Shown here in pieces: positions 7,262 to 32,456 of a stretch of 64,000 nt of DNA. Below the pieces are notes generated by a model. It saw only the letters and a program-made list of their open reading frames with translations. It was not told where the DNA came from and made no database searches. The position numbers were made by a program, and so were the translations under genes. This stretch comes from Geoalkalibacter sp. (GTDB lineage Bacteria; Desulfobacterota; Desulfuromonadia; Desulfuromonadales; Geoalkalibacteraceae). Position 1 is the first letter of the stretch. Every line of letters begins with the position of its first letter. The stretch is taken from positions 1 through 64,000 of the forward strand of contig NZ_JAUWAV010000017.1 in the NCBI RefSeq assembly GCF_030605225.1, in the 5' to 3' direction.

Positions 7262-8605
7262 ATGTCAAAGTTCTTTTATCTTGAGACCTTCGGCTGCCAG
7301 ATGAACGTGGTCGATTCGGAGCAGATCGTTGATCTGCTGGAGCGCGTGGGTTACGCCCAGGTCGAAACTCCCGAGGCCGCCGATCTGATTCTGCTCAACA
7401 CCTGCTCGGTGCGCGACAAGGCCGAGCGCAAGGTCTACGGCCATCTGGGCCGCTTCAAGCCCCTCAAGGACCGGCGCCCCGAACTGATCATCGGCGTGGG
7501 CGGTTGCGTGGCCCAGCAGGATGGCGAGAAGCTGCTCGAGAAGCTGCGTTACGTCGATCTGGTGTTCGGCACCCACAACATCCACCGTCTGCCCGAAATG
7601 CTCGCCGGTGTCGAGCAGGAAGGTCGGCGCCGTCTTGAAACCGAGTTTCTCGATGCCGACACGCGCCGCGGCCTGTTTCCCGAACGCGCCGCCAAGGAGG
7701 CGGTGACACGCTTTGTAACCGTCATGCAGGGCTGCGACAATTTTTGCTCGTACTGCATCGTGCCCCATGTGCGCGGCCGCGAAATCAGTCGCGCCGGCGG
7801 TGAAATCCTCGCCGAGATCCGCGATTTGGCGGCACGAGGGGTCAAGGAAGTGACCCTGCTCGGGCAAAACGTCAATTCCTACGGCCTGCGCGAAACGGGG
7901 GAGATGTCCTTTGCGCAACTGCTTCACGCGGTGCACGAGATCGAGGGCATTGAGCGCATCCGTTTCACCACCTCGCACCCCAAGGATCTCTCCGATGAGC
8001 TGATCGAGTGCTTCGGCAGCCTGCCCAAGCTCGCCCGGCATCTGCATCTGCCCGTGCAATGCGGCGCCGACGCGGTGCTCGCGGCCATGAATCGCGGCTA
8101 CACCCGCGCCCAGTATCTGGACAAGGTGGCGCGCCTCAAGCAGGTCTGTCCCGACATCCGCCTGACCTCGGACATCATCGTCGGCTTTCCCGGCGAGACG
8201 GACGAGGACTTCGGCGAGACTCTTGCATTGGTCGAGGCGGTACGCTACGCCGATATTTACTCTTTTCTCTACTCGCCGCGCCGGGGCACGGCGGCGGCGC
8301 AATGGGAGGAAACCCTCGATCCCAAGGACAAGCAGGCGCGTTTCGATGCCCTGCTCGCCGCGCAGCAGCGCATCAGCGGCGAGATCTGGCAGAGTGATGT
8401 CGGCCGCGTGCTGCCGGTGCTGGTCGAGGGCACCAGCCGCCAGGGCGGCGCGCAGCTCTTCGGCCGCACCACCTGGAACCGCATCGTCAACTTCGCCGGG
8501 CCCGCCGACCGGGTCGGCCAGGTCGTGCCGGTGCGTATTACCACCTCGCTGAAGAACAGCCAGGTCGGTGAACTGGAGATGGAAGAGACGCGCGCGGCAA
8601 GTTGA
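7262..8605 (+). CDS. miaB: tRNA-2-methylthio-N6-dimethylallyladenosine synthase MiaB
   Basis: A radical-SAM methylthiotransferase that adds a methylthio group to isopentenyladenosine-37 of tRNAs reading UNN codons. The N-terminal MTTase domain carries the auxiliary cluster cysteines Cys12 (ETFGCQMN), Cys48 (LNTCSVRDKAE) and Cys82 (GGCVAQ). The radical-SAM motif is Cys158-x3-Cys162-x2-Cys165 (GCDNFCSYC) followed by IVPHVRGRE. The C-terminal 65 residues form a TRAM domain (LFGRTTWNRIVNF). Length 447 aa is typical. Homologous MtaB and RimO differ in the signature around CSYCIVP, which here is MiaB-like. The stop overlaps the first possible start of the response regulator gene downstream, so the genes are probably cotranscribed. 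Confidence 0.97.
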   Translation: MSKFFYLETFGCQMNVVDSEQIVDLLERVGYAQVETPEAADLILLNTCSVRDKAERKVYGHLGRFKPLKDRRPELIIGVGGCVAQQDGEKLLEKLRYVDLVFGTHNIHRLPEMLAGVEQEGRRRLETEFLDADTRRGLFPERAAKEAVTRFVTVMQGCDNFCSYCIVPHVRGREISRAGGEILAEIRDLAARGVKEVTLLGQNVNSYGLRETGEMSFAQLLHAVHEIEGIERIRFTTSHPKDLSDELIECFGSLPKLARHLHLPVQCGADAVLAAMNRGYTRAQYLDKVARLKQVCPDIRLTSDIIVGFPGETDEDFGETLALVEAVRYADIYSFLYSPRRGTAAAQWEETLDPKDKQARFDALLAAQQRISGEIWQSDVGRVLPVLVEGTSRQGGAQLFGRTTWNRIVNFAGPADRVGQVVPVRITTSLKNSQVGELEMEETRAAS

Positions 8606-8670
8606 GCAACTGTTCTTCCCTTGACCAGAGGGGAGAGTTCAATCTTCGACTCATTTCAGCGGACCTCGGC

Positions 8671-10557
8671 ATGGCCAAAGGGCGCATTCTCGCCATCGAC
8701 GACGAAAAATTCTTCCGCGAGCTCTACCGCGACCTCCTCGCCGCCGAGGGATACCTGGTGCGCACGGCGCAGAGCGGTGAAGAGGCCCTCGACATTCTGC
8801 GCCGCGAGGATTTCGACCTGGTCATTTCCGACCTTGGTCTCACGGGGATGGATGGTCTTGAAACCAGTCGCGCCATCAAGCGTTTCAATCCCGAGCAGGA
8901 AATCATCGTCGTCAGCGCCTTGACCGATGTGGCGACGGCGGTGGCGGCGATGAAGGCGGGGGCGACCGATTACGTGTGCAAACCCATCAATCCCGAGGAA
9001 TTCCTGCTGCTGGTCAACAAGACCCTGTTTCGCCGCGCCCTGCATCTCGAACACCGCAAGCTTCTCGACGAAAACCTCGAATACGTCTCCATCGTTTCCA
9101 CCTACCAGAAGTGTCGTGAATTTCTCCATGTGCACGAACTCGACCGCCTCGGCGATCTGATCCTCGATACGCTCATGGAGTTGCTGCGCGCCGAGGGTGC
9201 GGTGCTGTGGCTGGCCGGCTTCGACGGCAGTTACTTTCGCCGCCGTTGTCGGCGCGGCCTGGCGCGCGTCGCCCCGGAGGAGGAAACCCTGCAACCGGGC
9301 GACGAGGAGCCTGGCCTGCCGCGGGAGGAGGAGCCGCTGCTGCTGCCCGGAGGCGATCGTCTCTGGGTGCCGCTGCGTCATAACCGTGAAACCCTGGGGC
9401 TGATCCGCGTCGAGGCGCCCATGGGGCGCGGGCAGTTCACAAGGCGCGATCTCAAGGTGGCCGGGGCCGTGGCCGAATTTGCCGCAAGCGCCCTGCACAA
9501 CGTGCTGCTGCACCGGGCGCTGGAGCAGCGCAGCCTGCGCATGCCCCGCGCCGAGGCCTACAACATGGCTTTTTTCCGTGATCACATGGACAAAGAGCTG
9601 AGCAAAGTGCGCCGTTATGGACGACAGCTGTCCTTGATCCGCCTGCGTGTGGAAAACTACGCCGAACTTCATCATCATTTTCGCAGCCGTGAGCTCGAAG
9701 GGGCCATGACGCGCGTCATCGAGGCGATCAATTCCATCCTGCGCGATGCCGACATCATGGCCATGGCCGCCGGCGACGATTTCTACATCCTGCTGCCCGA
9801 GACCGATTACTGGGGGTCGCTCATCACCCAGAAGCGCATCCGCAAGGCCCTGCGCGGCAAGCTCACCCTGTGCGACATGAAAAAAAGCTTTCCCCTGCAG
9901 GCGCGCATGCGCTCGGCCGCTTTTCCCCTGGACGGCACCAGCTTCGAGCAGCTCAGCGCCACCGCCGAGCGCCGCCTGGAAGGGCTCAGGGGCAGCCTCT
10001 ACTTCAGGGATGACTGGGAGCGCACCTCTTTCTGGGGAGTCGTCGGGCAGATTCTCGGCAAGCCGGAGGATTACCGTTTCAGCGGTGCGGGCCTGGAGCT
10101 CTCCGCGCGTTTGCAGCGCTATCACGAGGACAGTAAAAGCCGCTATCTGCGCTTGCCCGTCGCGGAGATGCCGCGAATCCAGAGCGCGTTTTTTCGCGAG
10201 GTGGTCGAGTCGAGCCGGGTGCGCGGGGTTATTTTTCGCGGCTGCGGCAATTTCGAGGAGATTCGCGCCGACCTGCCCGATCTCGAAGCTCTGGAAAAAT
10301 CGGCGACCTCATTGTTTCTGGTGGGCGGCAGCGAGAGGGTGCAGTGGGATTATCAGCGCACGGTGCCGATCTTCATCGAGGGCGACCCCTTTCACAAGGT
10401 GCCTTTTCTGCTCTATCTCAACGAAGATTCGGCCTATGCTTTATTCGCCCGTCGGCGTGGCAACGAGTTGGTGGGCTTTCACACCTCCGATTTCTATTTC
10501 GTGGAAAACATGATCGCCAAGTTGCAGGAACAGTATCAGCTTCAGGTGCAGATCTGA
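8671..10557 (+). CDS. Response regulator with GAF-like and degenerate GGDEF domains, 628 aa
   Basis: The N-terminal receiver (about residues 1-120) is complete: acidic pair in ILAIDDE, phosphoacceptor Asp in VISDLGLTGMDG, VSALTD, and the lysine in CKPINPEEF. A helical linker and a GAF-like region (about 150-300) follow. A GGDEF-fold domain (about 310-455) reads AAGDDF where GG(D/E)EF is required and lacks the usual substrate Asp/Asn residues, so it is probably catalytically dead. The last 170 residues (ending FHTSDFYFVENMIAKLQEQY) are unassigned. ATG 8671 begins the receiver correctly; the frame is open back to a TTG at 8602 overlapping the miaB stop. No output DNA-binding domain is present, suggesting protein-protein or ligand-sensing output. 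Confidence 0.8.
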   Translation: MAKGRILAIDDEKFFRELYRDLLAAEGYLVRTAQSGEEALDILRREDFDLVISDLGLTGMDGLETSRAIKRFNPEQEIIVVSALTDVATAVAAMKAGATDYVCKPINPEEFLLLVNKTLFRRALHLEHRKLLDENLEYVSIVSTYQKCREFLHVHELDRLGDLILDTLMELLRAEGAVLWLAGFDGSYFRRRCRRGLARVAPEEETLQPGDEEPGLPREEEPLLLPGGDRLWVPLRHNRETLGLIRVEAPMGRGQFTRRDLKVAGAVAEFAASALHNVLLHRALEQRSLRMPRAEAYNMAFFRDHMDKELSKVRRYGRQLSLIRLRVENYAELHHHFRSRELEGAMTRVIEAINSILRDADIMAMAAGDDFYILLPETDYWGSLITQKRIRKALRGKLTLCDMKKSFPLQARMRSAAFPLDGTSFEQLSATAERRLEGLRGSLYFRDDWERTSFWGVVGQILGKPEDYRFSGAGLELSARLQRYHEDSKSRYLRLPVAEMPRIQSAFFREVVESSRVRGVIFRGCGNFEEIRADLPDLEALEKSATSLFLVGGSERVQWDYQRTVPIFIEGDPFHKVPFLLYLNEDSAYALFARRRGNELVGFHTSDFYFVENMIAKLQEQYQLQVQI

Positions 10558-28461: not shown

Positions 28462-30631
<2,170 letters not shown>

Positions 30632-30654: not shown

Positions 30655-30682
30655 TTGCCAGGCCCCCAGGAGCCGATATAAT
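30655..30682 (+). promoter_or_regulatory. Promoter of the zinc-ribbon gene
   Basis: TTGCCA (30655-30660), 16 bp, and a consensus TATAAT (30677-30682) lie 35 bp before the ATG at 30717. Confidence 0.7.
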
Positions 30683-30716
30683 TGGAATTAAATCAATTGC
30701 TTGAGTGAGGTGCCTC

Positions 30717-31028
30717 ATGACCGATCTGTGGGATGAAAGAAAAAAAGCCCTCGAAAATCAGTACTTCCGCAAGCTGGAGGAAGAAAAGATCGCCCGCCTT
30801 CGCGAGGACTCCAAGGAGCGTCTGATCCGCGAGTGTTGTCAGGACCGTTGTCCCAAGTGCGGAGAGCCATTGGAGAAAATGGTGTTTCGTGAAGTGCCTC
30901 TCGACAAATGCCCCGACTGCGGCGGAGTATGGCTTGGACCTAAAGATCTTCAGATTCTTGCCGAAAAGGATCATCGGACCTGGTTTCAACGCTGGTTCCA
31001 GGCTGAGGAAGATCGCAAAGCCGGATAG
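30717..31028 (+). CDS. TFIIB-type zinc-ribbon protein, 103 aa
   Basis: A small cytoplasmic protein with one zinc ribbon of the zf-TFIIB (PF13453-like) class: CPKCGEPLEKMVFREVPLDKCPDCGGVWLG, residues about 44-73, two C-x2-C pairs. A charged helical N-terminus precedes it (WDERKKALENQYFRKLEEEKIARLRED). Function of this class is not established; zinc ribbons often mediate protein or nucleic acid contacts. ATG 30717 has GAGG six bases upstream; a GTG at 30705 does not. It has its own strong promoter and terminator, so it is monocistronic. Confidence 0.85.
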   Translation: MTDLWDERKKALENQYFRKLEEEKIARLREDSKERLIRECCQDRCPKCGEPLEKMVFREVPLDKCPDCGGVWLGPKDLQILAEKDHRTWFQRWFQAEEDRKAG

Positions 31029-31061: not shown

Positions 31062-31102
31062 AGCCTCTGTCGGATCCTTGCGGCCCCGGCAGAGGCTTTT
31101 TT
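31062..31102 (+). terminator. Intrinsic terminator after the zinc-ribbon gene
   Basis: A 12-bp stem (31062-31073 with 31086-31097, one G-T wobble), a 12-base loop and a run of six T. It also covers the TTG at 31101, arguing against that codon as the next gene's start. Confidence 0.9.
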
Positions 31103-31130: not shown

Positions 31131-32456
31131 GTGCGCCTGTCCATTTCCCTGAAAATCCTGTCCGGCTATCTGATTCTCGCCGTCTTCCTGGTTGCGGCCT
31201 CCTGGCACGCCCTGTCCTATCTGCATCGGGTTTCCGAAACCTCGCAAACCATTCTCAATCAGTCGGTGCAGGCAACCACCGCCATTGGCGGCATGCAAAC
31301 CGCCATGAGCTCGCTGGAGCAATGCGCCGATATCTATCCCGAATCTCCTTCGCCGGGGATTCTCAATCTCTTCCAATTCTATCGGCGCCAGTTCGAGCAG
31401 GGATTGCTGCGCGTTTCCCTGGCACCGGTCGACGGCCGCCGGCTCGAAGATCTGCGCGCCTCCTATGCCCGCTATCTGGAGCAGTTTGAACTGCAGATCG
31501 AACTGGTTGGCACCGGGCGCGTTCTGGAAGCGAAAAACCGCGCGGCCACGGTGCTCGGACCTCAGGCCGGTCATATTCAAGGGCTGCTCGACACCCTGCA
31601 CCTGGCGGCGCAGCGCACCCTCGACGCCGAACTCATCTCTCTGCGGGGGTTTTCCTCGGGGGTGTCGACGGCGGTTTTCTTCACGTCGCTCTTTGGTGTT
31701 TTGTGCGGCCTGGCCGCGGTGATTCTTACCGCGCTGCAACTCAATGGCGGCATCCGCAAGCTCAAGGAAGCCACCTTCATGGTCGGCAAGGGCAACTTCG
31801 ATCTCAATCTCGGCCTGCGCACCGGCGATGCCCTGGAGGATCTGGCCCGATGTTTTGAAGTCATGGCGCAGAAACTCAAAATGTCCGAGCAACTCTGTCT
31901 CGACGCCAGTCCTCTGACCTATCTGCCCGGCAATATCGCCATCGAGCGGGCTCTGACCGACCGGATCAAGCGCGACGTGCGTTTTGCCCTGTGCTACATC
32001 GATCTTGATGATTTCAAGGCCTTCAATGATCATTACGGCTATGCTCGGGGTAGCGAGGTGATCAAGGCCGTGGCGGATCTGCTGGCCGTCGTGCGCGGCG
32101 AAGTGGGTGGCGAAAACGATTTCATCGGTCATATCGGCGGCGACGATTTCGTCGTCATCACCGATGACGAACGCGCCGAGGACATCTGCGCGCACATCAT
32201 TCAGCGCTTCGATGCCCTGATTCCCGACTTTTATTCCGAGGAAGACCGCGCGCGCGGCTACATCATCGGCGTCGATCGTTACGGACAGACCCGTCAGTTC
32301 CCCCTGATGACCATTTCCATCGCCGTGGTCAGCGACGCGCGGCGCGATATCCACTCGCCGGCCGAGATTGCGCGGGTCGCGGCTGAAATCAAGGACTACG
32401 TCAAAACCCGACCCGGCAGCAACTATCACATCGACCGTCGGCAACGACCCCGCTGA
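31131..32456 (+). CDS. Membrane sensor GGDEF protein; candidate Hypr cyclase
   Basis: A predicted membrane-bound nucleotide cyclase. Residues about 5-30 and 175-205 are membrane helices bracketing a periplasmic helical sensor of about 145 residues. A short HAMP-like stretch follows (LNGGIRKLKEATFMVGKGNFD), then a GGDEF domain from about 280. The domain keeps Asp291 (YIDLDDF) and Asn299 and reads GGDDF at 336-340. Gly307-Ser308 (YARGSEVI) stands where canonical diguanylate cyclases have Gly-Asp. No RxxD inhibitory site precedes GGDDF. The substitution is the one linked to Hypr enzymes making 3',3'-cGAMP in Geobacter; product here is inference. Start chosen as GTG 31131, which lacks a strong ribosome site. 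Confidence 0.82.
   Translation: MRLSISLKILSGYLILAVFLVAASWHALSYLHRVSETSQTILNQSVQATTAIGGMQTAMSSLEQCADIYPESPSPGILNLFQFYRRQFEQGLLRVSLAPVDGRRLEDLRASYARYLEQFELQIELVGTGRVLEAKNRAATVLGPQAGHIQGLLDTLHLAAQRTLDAELISLRGFSSGVSTAVFFTSLFGVLCGLAAVILTALQLNGGIRKLKEATFMVGKGNFDLNLGLRTGDALEDLARCFEVMAQKLKMSEQLCLDASPLTYLPGNIAIERALTDRIKRDVRFALCYIDLDDFKAFNDHYGYARGSEVIKAVADLLAVVRGEVGGENDFIGHIGGDDFVVITDDERAEDICAHIIQRFDALIPDFYSEEDRARGYIIGVDRYGQTRQFPLMTISIAVVSDARRDIHSPAEIARVAAEIKDYVKTRPGSNYHIDRRQRPR

Follow-up and report, generated by a model that had tools for sequence, protein, structure and literature searches.

A membrane-bound GGDDF protein of Geoalkalibacter as a candidate Hypr-type synthase of the GSU1937 kind

Does the open reading frame at 31131–32456 of a 64,000-nucleotide stretch of Geoalkalibacter DNA (the window) encode a synthase of 3',3'-cGAMP, and how does its product relate to the enzymes already described for that signal? 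An earlier note on this DNA had taken the protein, here called P0001, for a candidate cGAMP (Hypr) synthase and for a new, membrane-borne input to cGAMP signaling. Altogether, our results support a model in which P0001 is a membrane-bound Hypr-type GGDEF synthase of the kind represented by GSU1937 of Geobacter sulfurreducens, probably promiscuous in that it would make 3',3'-cGAMP and some c-di-GMP; we give this reading a probability of about 0.7. The candidacy itself thus survives as the best reading, backed by the alignment column shared with GacA, by a likely GacA orthologue in the same genome and by an A20 riboswitch, while the claim of novelty does not. The features of the protein are the following.

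31131..32456, + strand: membrane Ser/GGDDF Hypr-type GGDEF protein P0001 (predicted), 441 aa, GTG start and TGA end (ORF list, Pfam)
31155..31214, + strand: first transmembrane helix, residues ~9-28 (hydropathy; helix 5-68 in the AlphaFold model)
31215..31655, + strand: periplasmic four-helix-bundle sensor, residues ~29-175 (AlphaFold helices; sub-cut-off Pfam 4HB_MCP_1 and CHASE3)
31656..31754, + strand: second transmembrane helix, residues ~176-208 (hydropathy)
31731..31880, + strand: HAMP-like linker, residues 201-250 (Pfam HAMP 16.2 bits, cut-off of 25 not reached)
31902..32432, + strand: PGN-type GGDEF domain, residues ~258-434 (Pfam GGDEF; Foldseek against the PDB)
31932..31934, + strand: Asn268, probable GacA Tyr304 column, the cross-dimer residue (alignment)
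32001..32003, + strand: Asp291, metal-site Asp of DLD (kept in 79/79 membrane homologues)
32025..32027, + strand: Asn299, equivalent of GacA Asn339, sugar-face base contact (alignment; role from eLife 2019)
32052..32054, + strand: Ser308 (codon AGC), Hypr signature position, GacA Ser347/348 (alignment)
32136..32150, + strand: GGDDF motif, residues 336-340 (ORF translation)

The ORF and the alignments agree with the earlier note on the coordinates, the frame, the Y-A-R-G-Ser308 string, the GGDDF motif and the missing I-site. The GTG codon at 31131 is the start also used by the homologues, whose first residues align with those of P0001. Hydropathy marks hydrophobic stretches at residues ~1-32 and 176-208, and the AlphaFold model, built from 18 homologues (mean pLDDT 87, pTM 0.48), consists of four long helices (5-68, 75-96, 102-127 and 131-219) followed by a GGDEF fold; two membrane helices and a four-helix bundle bear out the description of a membrane GGDEF protein with a periplasmic sensor. 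Foldseek comparison of this model with the PDB returned GGDEF cyclases, including GacA (6d9m), and the Pfam GGDEF match spans residues 261-366 at 51 bits (cut-off 23.8). P0001 does not look degenerate, since D291, D293, K296, D300, GGDD and K425 are all retained.

A joint alignment with the crystallized G. metallireducens GacA domain places Ser308 in the column of GacA Ser348, which is occupied by Asp in ordinary diguanylate cyclases from the genome that encodes P0001; the comparison with Hypr and canonical GGDEF domains that had been proposed as a check thus puts Ser308 at the Hypr position. Hypr enzymes carry Ser or Thr there, and Asp, the third residue of the P0001 GGDDF motif, is the central residue that Ser348 needs according to the 'Goldilocks' rule formulated alongside the role of Ser348 in GacA (eLife 2019). 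At the cross-dimer stacking position (GacA Tyr304), most diguanylate cyclases have Arg and a non-Arg residue favors cGAMP; P0001 has Asn268, a placement that is probable on an alignment in which a four-residue gap adjoins it. The fourth motif residue departs from the Hypr pattern, with Asp339 in place of the Glu that acts as general base, and in the eLife 2019 survey Ser/Thr348 occurred only alongside GGDE[F/Y]. Canonical diguanylate cyclases have Asp as the base contact and a [G/A/S]G[D/E]E[F/Y] motif, neither of which P0001 shares. What it does share are the traits of the GSU1937 family, namely a membrane sensor with a HAMP region (here below the Pfam cut-off), a single GGDDF domain and the Ser. 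Ser is not sufficient alone, because of five canonical enzymes given a D-to-S substitution, four lost their activity and the fifth, GSU3350, made c-di-GMP only (eLife 2019).

The membrane-borne input had already been published when the earlier note presented it as new to the cGAMP signal. Tan et al. 2022 (PMC8835794) describe GSU1937, which besides GacA is alone among the G. sulfurreducens GGDEF proteins in having the Hypr Ser, as a membrane protein with HAMP and a GGDDF motif, so that both the membrane-bound and the GGDDF features were in print. Deletion of GSU1937 lowered a cGAMP reporter by ~25% on fumarate and by 70% on Fe(III) citrate. Of four constructs in which its domain was fused to GacA, one was active and made cGAMP and c-di-GMP, the latter at a level comparable to GacA and the former at a lower one, and a GADDF mutation abolished this activity; in E. 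coli, full-length GSU1937 and three of the four fusions were inactive (PMC8835794). Because GSU1937 also has Asp as fourth motif residue and is active in the fusion, Glu is not required at this position in its subfamily. The same authors report many GSU1937 homologues in Deltaproteobacteria.

Our comparison with GSU1937 was made through its published deletion primers (PMC8835794); G. sulfurreducens itself does not occur in the genome set, where the best matches to its PilA are 78-88% identical. In frame, the ends of the primer arms encode VQKLIAS and STPGSNY. The first fits the N-terminus of a Geobacterales homologue (L149/L190), and the outer primer maps 744 nt further upstream (stated ~750); the second reads TRPGSNY in P0001, and at the DNA level it matches L159/L191 close to the C-terminal end. 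The primers match P0001 homologues with four mismatches, and a primer search in one genome family (f25) returned only matches with two to three mismatches, of doubtful relation. The match of both peptides to homologues of P0001 places GSU1937 in the same homologous family.

This family is widespread. Matches to P0001 at E <= 1e-30 occur in 112 of the 136 genomes of the window's order and in 131 of the 141 genomes of the order containing Geobacter relatives, counts that include some Asp-type relatives matched in the domain alone. Ser308 is invariant in 79 of 79 non-redundant membrane homologues of the class, as are D291, D293, K296, D300 and GGDD, whereas Asp fills the Ser308 column in all 25 non-membrane (soluble or multidomain) relatives that share LPGN and GGDDF. 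Given such invariance, Ser308 is no chance occurrence, and a Ser fixed in the membrane clade opposite an Asp fixed in its sisters suggests selection for altered base recognition. The GGDDF motif and the missing I-site, listed in the earlier note as further departures, are both present and are family traits not special to P0001: the Arg of the RxxD I-site is missing, and an R..D pair is found in only 2 of 86 homologues. The Asn299 column is always Asn in the Asp-type set and is Asn, Gly, Ser or Thr in the Ser-type set, with one of the last three in 18 of the 79 members. Some clade members (L034-L041, L119-L123) measure ~320-340 aa in all and largely lack the periplasmic bundle, so these proteins may respond to a different input or to none.

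A family tree of the 79 membrane rows, the Asp-type relatives and GacA was built without the Ser column; in this tree, where long branches were flagged and the outlying Ser rows L045 and L050 were not firmly placed, the 79 membrane rows form one group (support 95) and Ser requires two changes over the whole tree including GacA, which suggests that the Ser of the membrane clade arose independently of GacA. The Ser-type proteins fall into three clades: one of Geobacterales relatives, which includes the GSU1937-like genes, one from the window's order in which GGDDY predominates, and that of P0001 (18 rows, support 96). The last joins the GSU1937 clade in one tree (SH-aLRT 82), and the tree without the Ser column gives no firm branching order among the three. 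P0001 is 88% identical to a protein from one Geoalkalibacter MAG, and its GGDEF domain is 61-67% identical to those of more distant members of its own clade. We place even odds on a wider proposal, in which the Hypr Ser would have at least two origins, one leading to GacA and the other ancestral to a membrane GGDD(F/Y) clade widespread in Desulfuromonadia, so that membrane cGAMP synthesis coupled to many different periplasmic sensors would be a class-wide trait and P0001 would stand for a Desulfuromonadales branch of it.

The Geoalkalibacter-like host genome encodes 28 GGDEF domains, and three of its proteins have Ser at the Hypr position: P0001, L022 and L025. L022 joins a receiver domain to a GGDEF domain and has GacA (6d9m, 192 bits) as its best solved-structure match, which makes it the likely GacA orthologue. 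L025 (G000:C46:8680-9150) is a membrane protein of CHASE4-HAMP-GGDEY layout in which Val takes the place of Asn339, possibly another Hypr-like enzyme or a degenerate one. The genome has four GEMM-I riboswitches, by alignment three of the G20 (c-di-GMP) type and one of the A20 (cGAMP) type (L030), where position 20 was placed from the Rfam consensus and the known features of this riboswitch class. In a Geobacter riboswitch, replacing A20 with G changes the ligand from cGAMP to c-di-GMP. The A20 element (L030 1501-1579, + strand) lies upstream of a subtilase-like ORF and not of one of the electron-transfer genes to which the earlier note had tied the signal; within the 64-kb window no cGAMP riboswitch was found at Rfam gathering thresholds. 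Rfam labels the L030 element c-di-GMP-I-UAU, and its A20/A47/C92 pattern departs from the consensus of that family. A20 riboswitches are also found in related genomes that carry the P0001 family, including G041, G042, G072, G095, G105 and G124.

Upstream of the gene, the window contains three features on the same strand.

29696..30631, + strand: Cas6-family protein, upstream neighbor (Pfam PF10040; synteny)
30705..31028, + strand: TFIIB-type zinc-ribbon protein, upstream neighbor (Pfam; synteny)
31062..31102, + strand: terminator-like hairpin with a T6 tail after the zinc-ribbon ORF (fold z = -3.71; stem kept in L033)

The order tgt, Cas6-like gene, zinc ribbon and GGDDF gene is common to many clade members (such as L033-L038, L040, L044 and L054). 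The hairpin, which a terminator scan missed and which folding and the alignment with L033 revealed, stops 28 bases short of the GTG codon that opens the GGDDF gene, and it may either close the upstream operon or act as an attenuator. The only promoter-like site lies at 30655-30682, upstream of the zinc-ribbon ORF, with none found after the hairpin. A defense link through the orphan Cas6-like neighbor was considered and set aside: no tie to the GGDDF gene was shown, and the single Cas1 match is on another contig. Elsewhere in the window, 8602-10557 (+ strand) encodes a REC-GAF-GGDEF response regulator (GGDEF Pfam 42.8 bits) that has VEN for the metal-site DxD and AAGDDF for GGDEF; its domain looks degenerate, and the protein is probably not a cyclase.

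Which product should be expected of P0001? We consider it unlikely that P0001 is an active cyclase making only or mainly c-di-GMP in the cell, its Ser tolerating GTP while ATP is still excluded. GSU3350 remained a pure diguanylate cyclase after D-to-S substitution (eLife 2019), the active GSU1937 fusion made about as much c-di-GMP as GacA and less cGAMP (PMC8835794), and three of the four host GEMM-I riboswitches are of the G20 type; however, GSU1937 deletion lowers the cGAMP reporter in its own host (PMC8835794), a non-Arg cross-dimer residue favors cGAMP, and the clade-fixed Ser opposite the sister-fixed Asp points to a selected change in base recognition. It is quite improbable, moreover, that the GGDDF domain is catalytically dead and serves as a nucleotide-binding or signaling module only. 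The motif is non-canonical, PA3258, a GGDDF protein of P. aeruginosa, showed no activity and full-length GSU1937 none in E. coli (PMC8835794), and the Pfam score of 51 bits is low, but the metal and base residues are invariant in 79 homologues, P0001 has no second catalytic domain to regulate, and the GSU1937 GGDDF fusion was active until changed to GADDF (PMC8835794). That relaxed base recognition makes P0001 a source mainly of another purine dinucleotide, such as c-di-AMP, seems very remote: Hypr enzymes do accept ATP and other purine NTPs (eLife 2019) and the 18 clade members mentioned have Gly, Ser or Thr, a relaxed choice, at the position of Asn299, but P0001 retains Asn299, and GacA, although promiscuous in vitro, is still a cGAMP synthase in vivo.

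For P0001 as a promiscuous Hypr-type synthase, we infer the activity, product mix and signaling path from these comparisons as follows. The periplasmic four-helix bundle would sense a signal and pass it through the second membrane helix and the HAMP-like linker, thereby changing the relative orientation of the two GGDEF domains. Each of these would bind one purine NTP, GTP or ATP, with Ser308, in place of the usual Asp, able to hydrogen bond with G and A alike at the Watson-Crick edge. The metal would be held by Asp291 and Asp338, and Asp339 would act as general base in the place of Glu, a replacement that could weaken catalysis. The product would be 3',3'-cGAMP, probably with some c-di-GMP, free of I-site feedback.

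If P0001 makes cGAMP, Geoalkalibacter-like bacteria have at least one membrane input to this signal besides soluble GacA, and the synthase family reaches well beyond Geobacter. Because the idea of a membrane GGDDF Hypr synthase was already published, the gain here is one of breadth and not of mechanism. The Ser-versus-Asp split between two close GGDDF groups moreover offers a natural experiment in the conversion of a c-di-GMP enzyme into one that makes cGAMP.

Finally, we compare P0001 with known systems. GacA (GSU1658 / Gmet_1914; PDB 6d9m) resembles it in the Ser on the Watson-Crick face, the central Asp of GGDxF and the non-Arg cross-dimer position, but is a soluble receiver-GGDEF protein with a GGDEF motif and an I-site, and the domains are ~25% identical. 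Asp-type soluble and multidomain proteins (e.g., L046-L049, L234-L247) share its LPGN...GH(I/V)GGDDF domain subfamily at ~36-46% identity, yet lie outside the membrane clade and have Asp for Ser in 25 of 25. Bd0367 of Bdellovibrio, described as a promiscuous Hypr GGDEF enzyme that makes c-di-GMP and cGAMP (PMC9140294), would share that promiscuity with P0001. GSU1937 shares with P0001 the membrane anchor, the HAMP or HAMP-like region, Ser at position 348, GGDDF and the lack of a second catalytic domain; P0001 differs in belonging to a separate Desulfuromonadales clade, with 49-57% identity to GSU1937-clade members in the GGDEF domain and a divergent sensor (15-20%). Judged by sequence, P0001 is therefore a relative of the GSU1937 kind, from a probable sister clade and not a proven orthologue, rather than a new type of enzyme.
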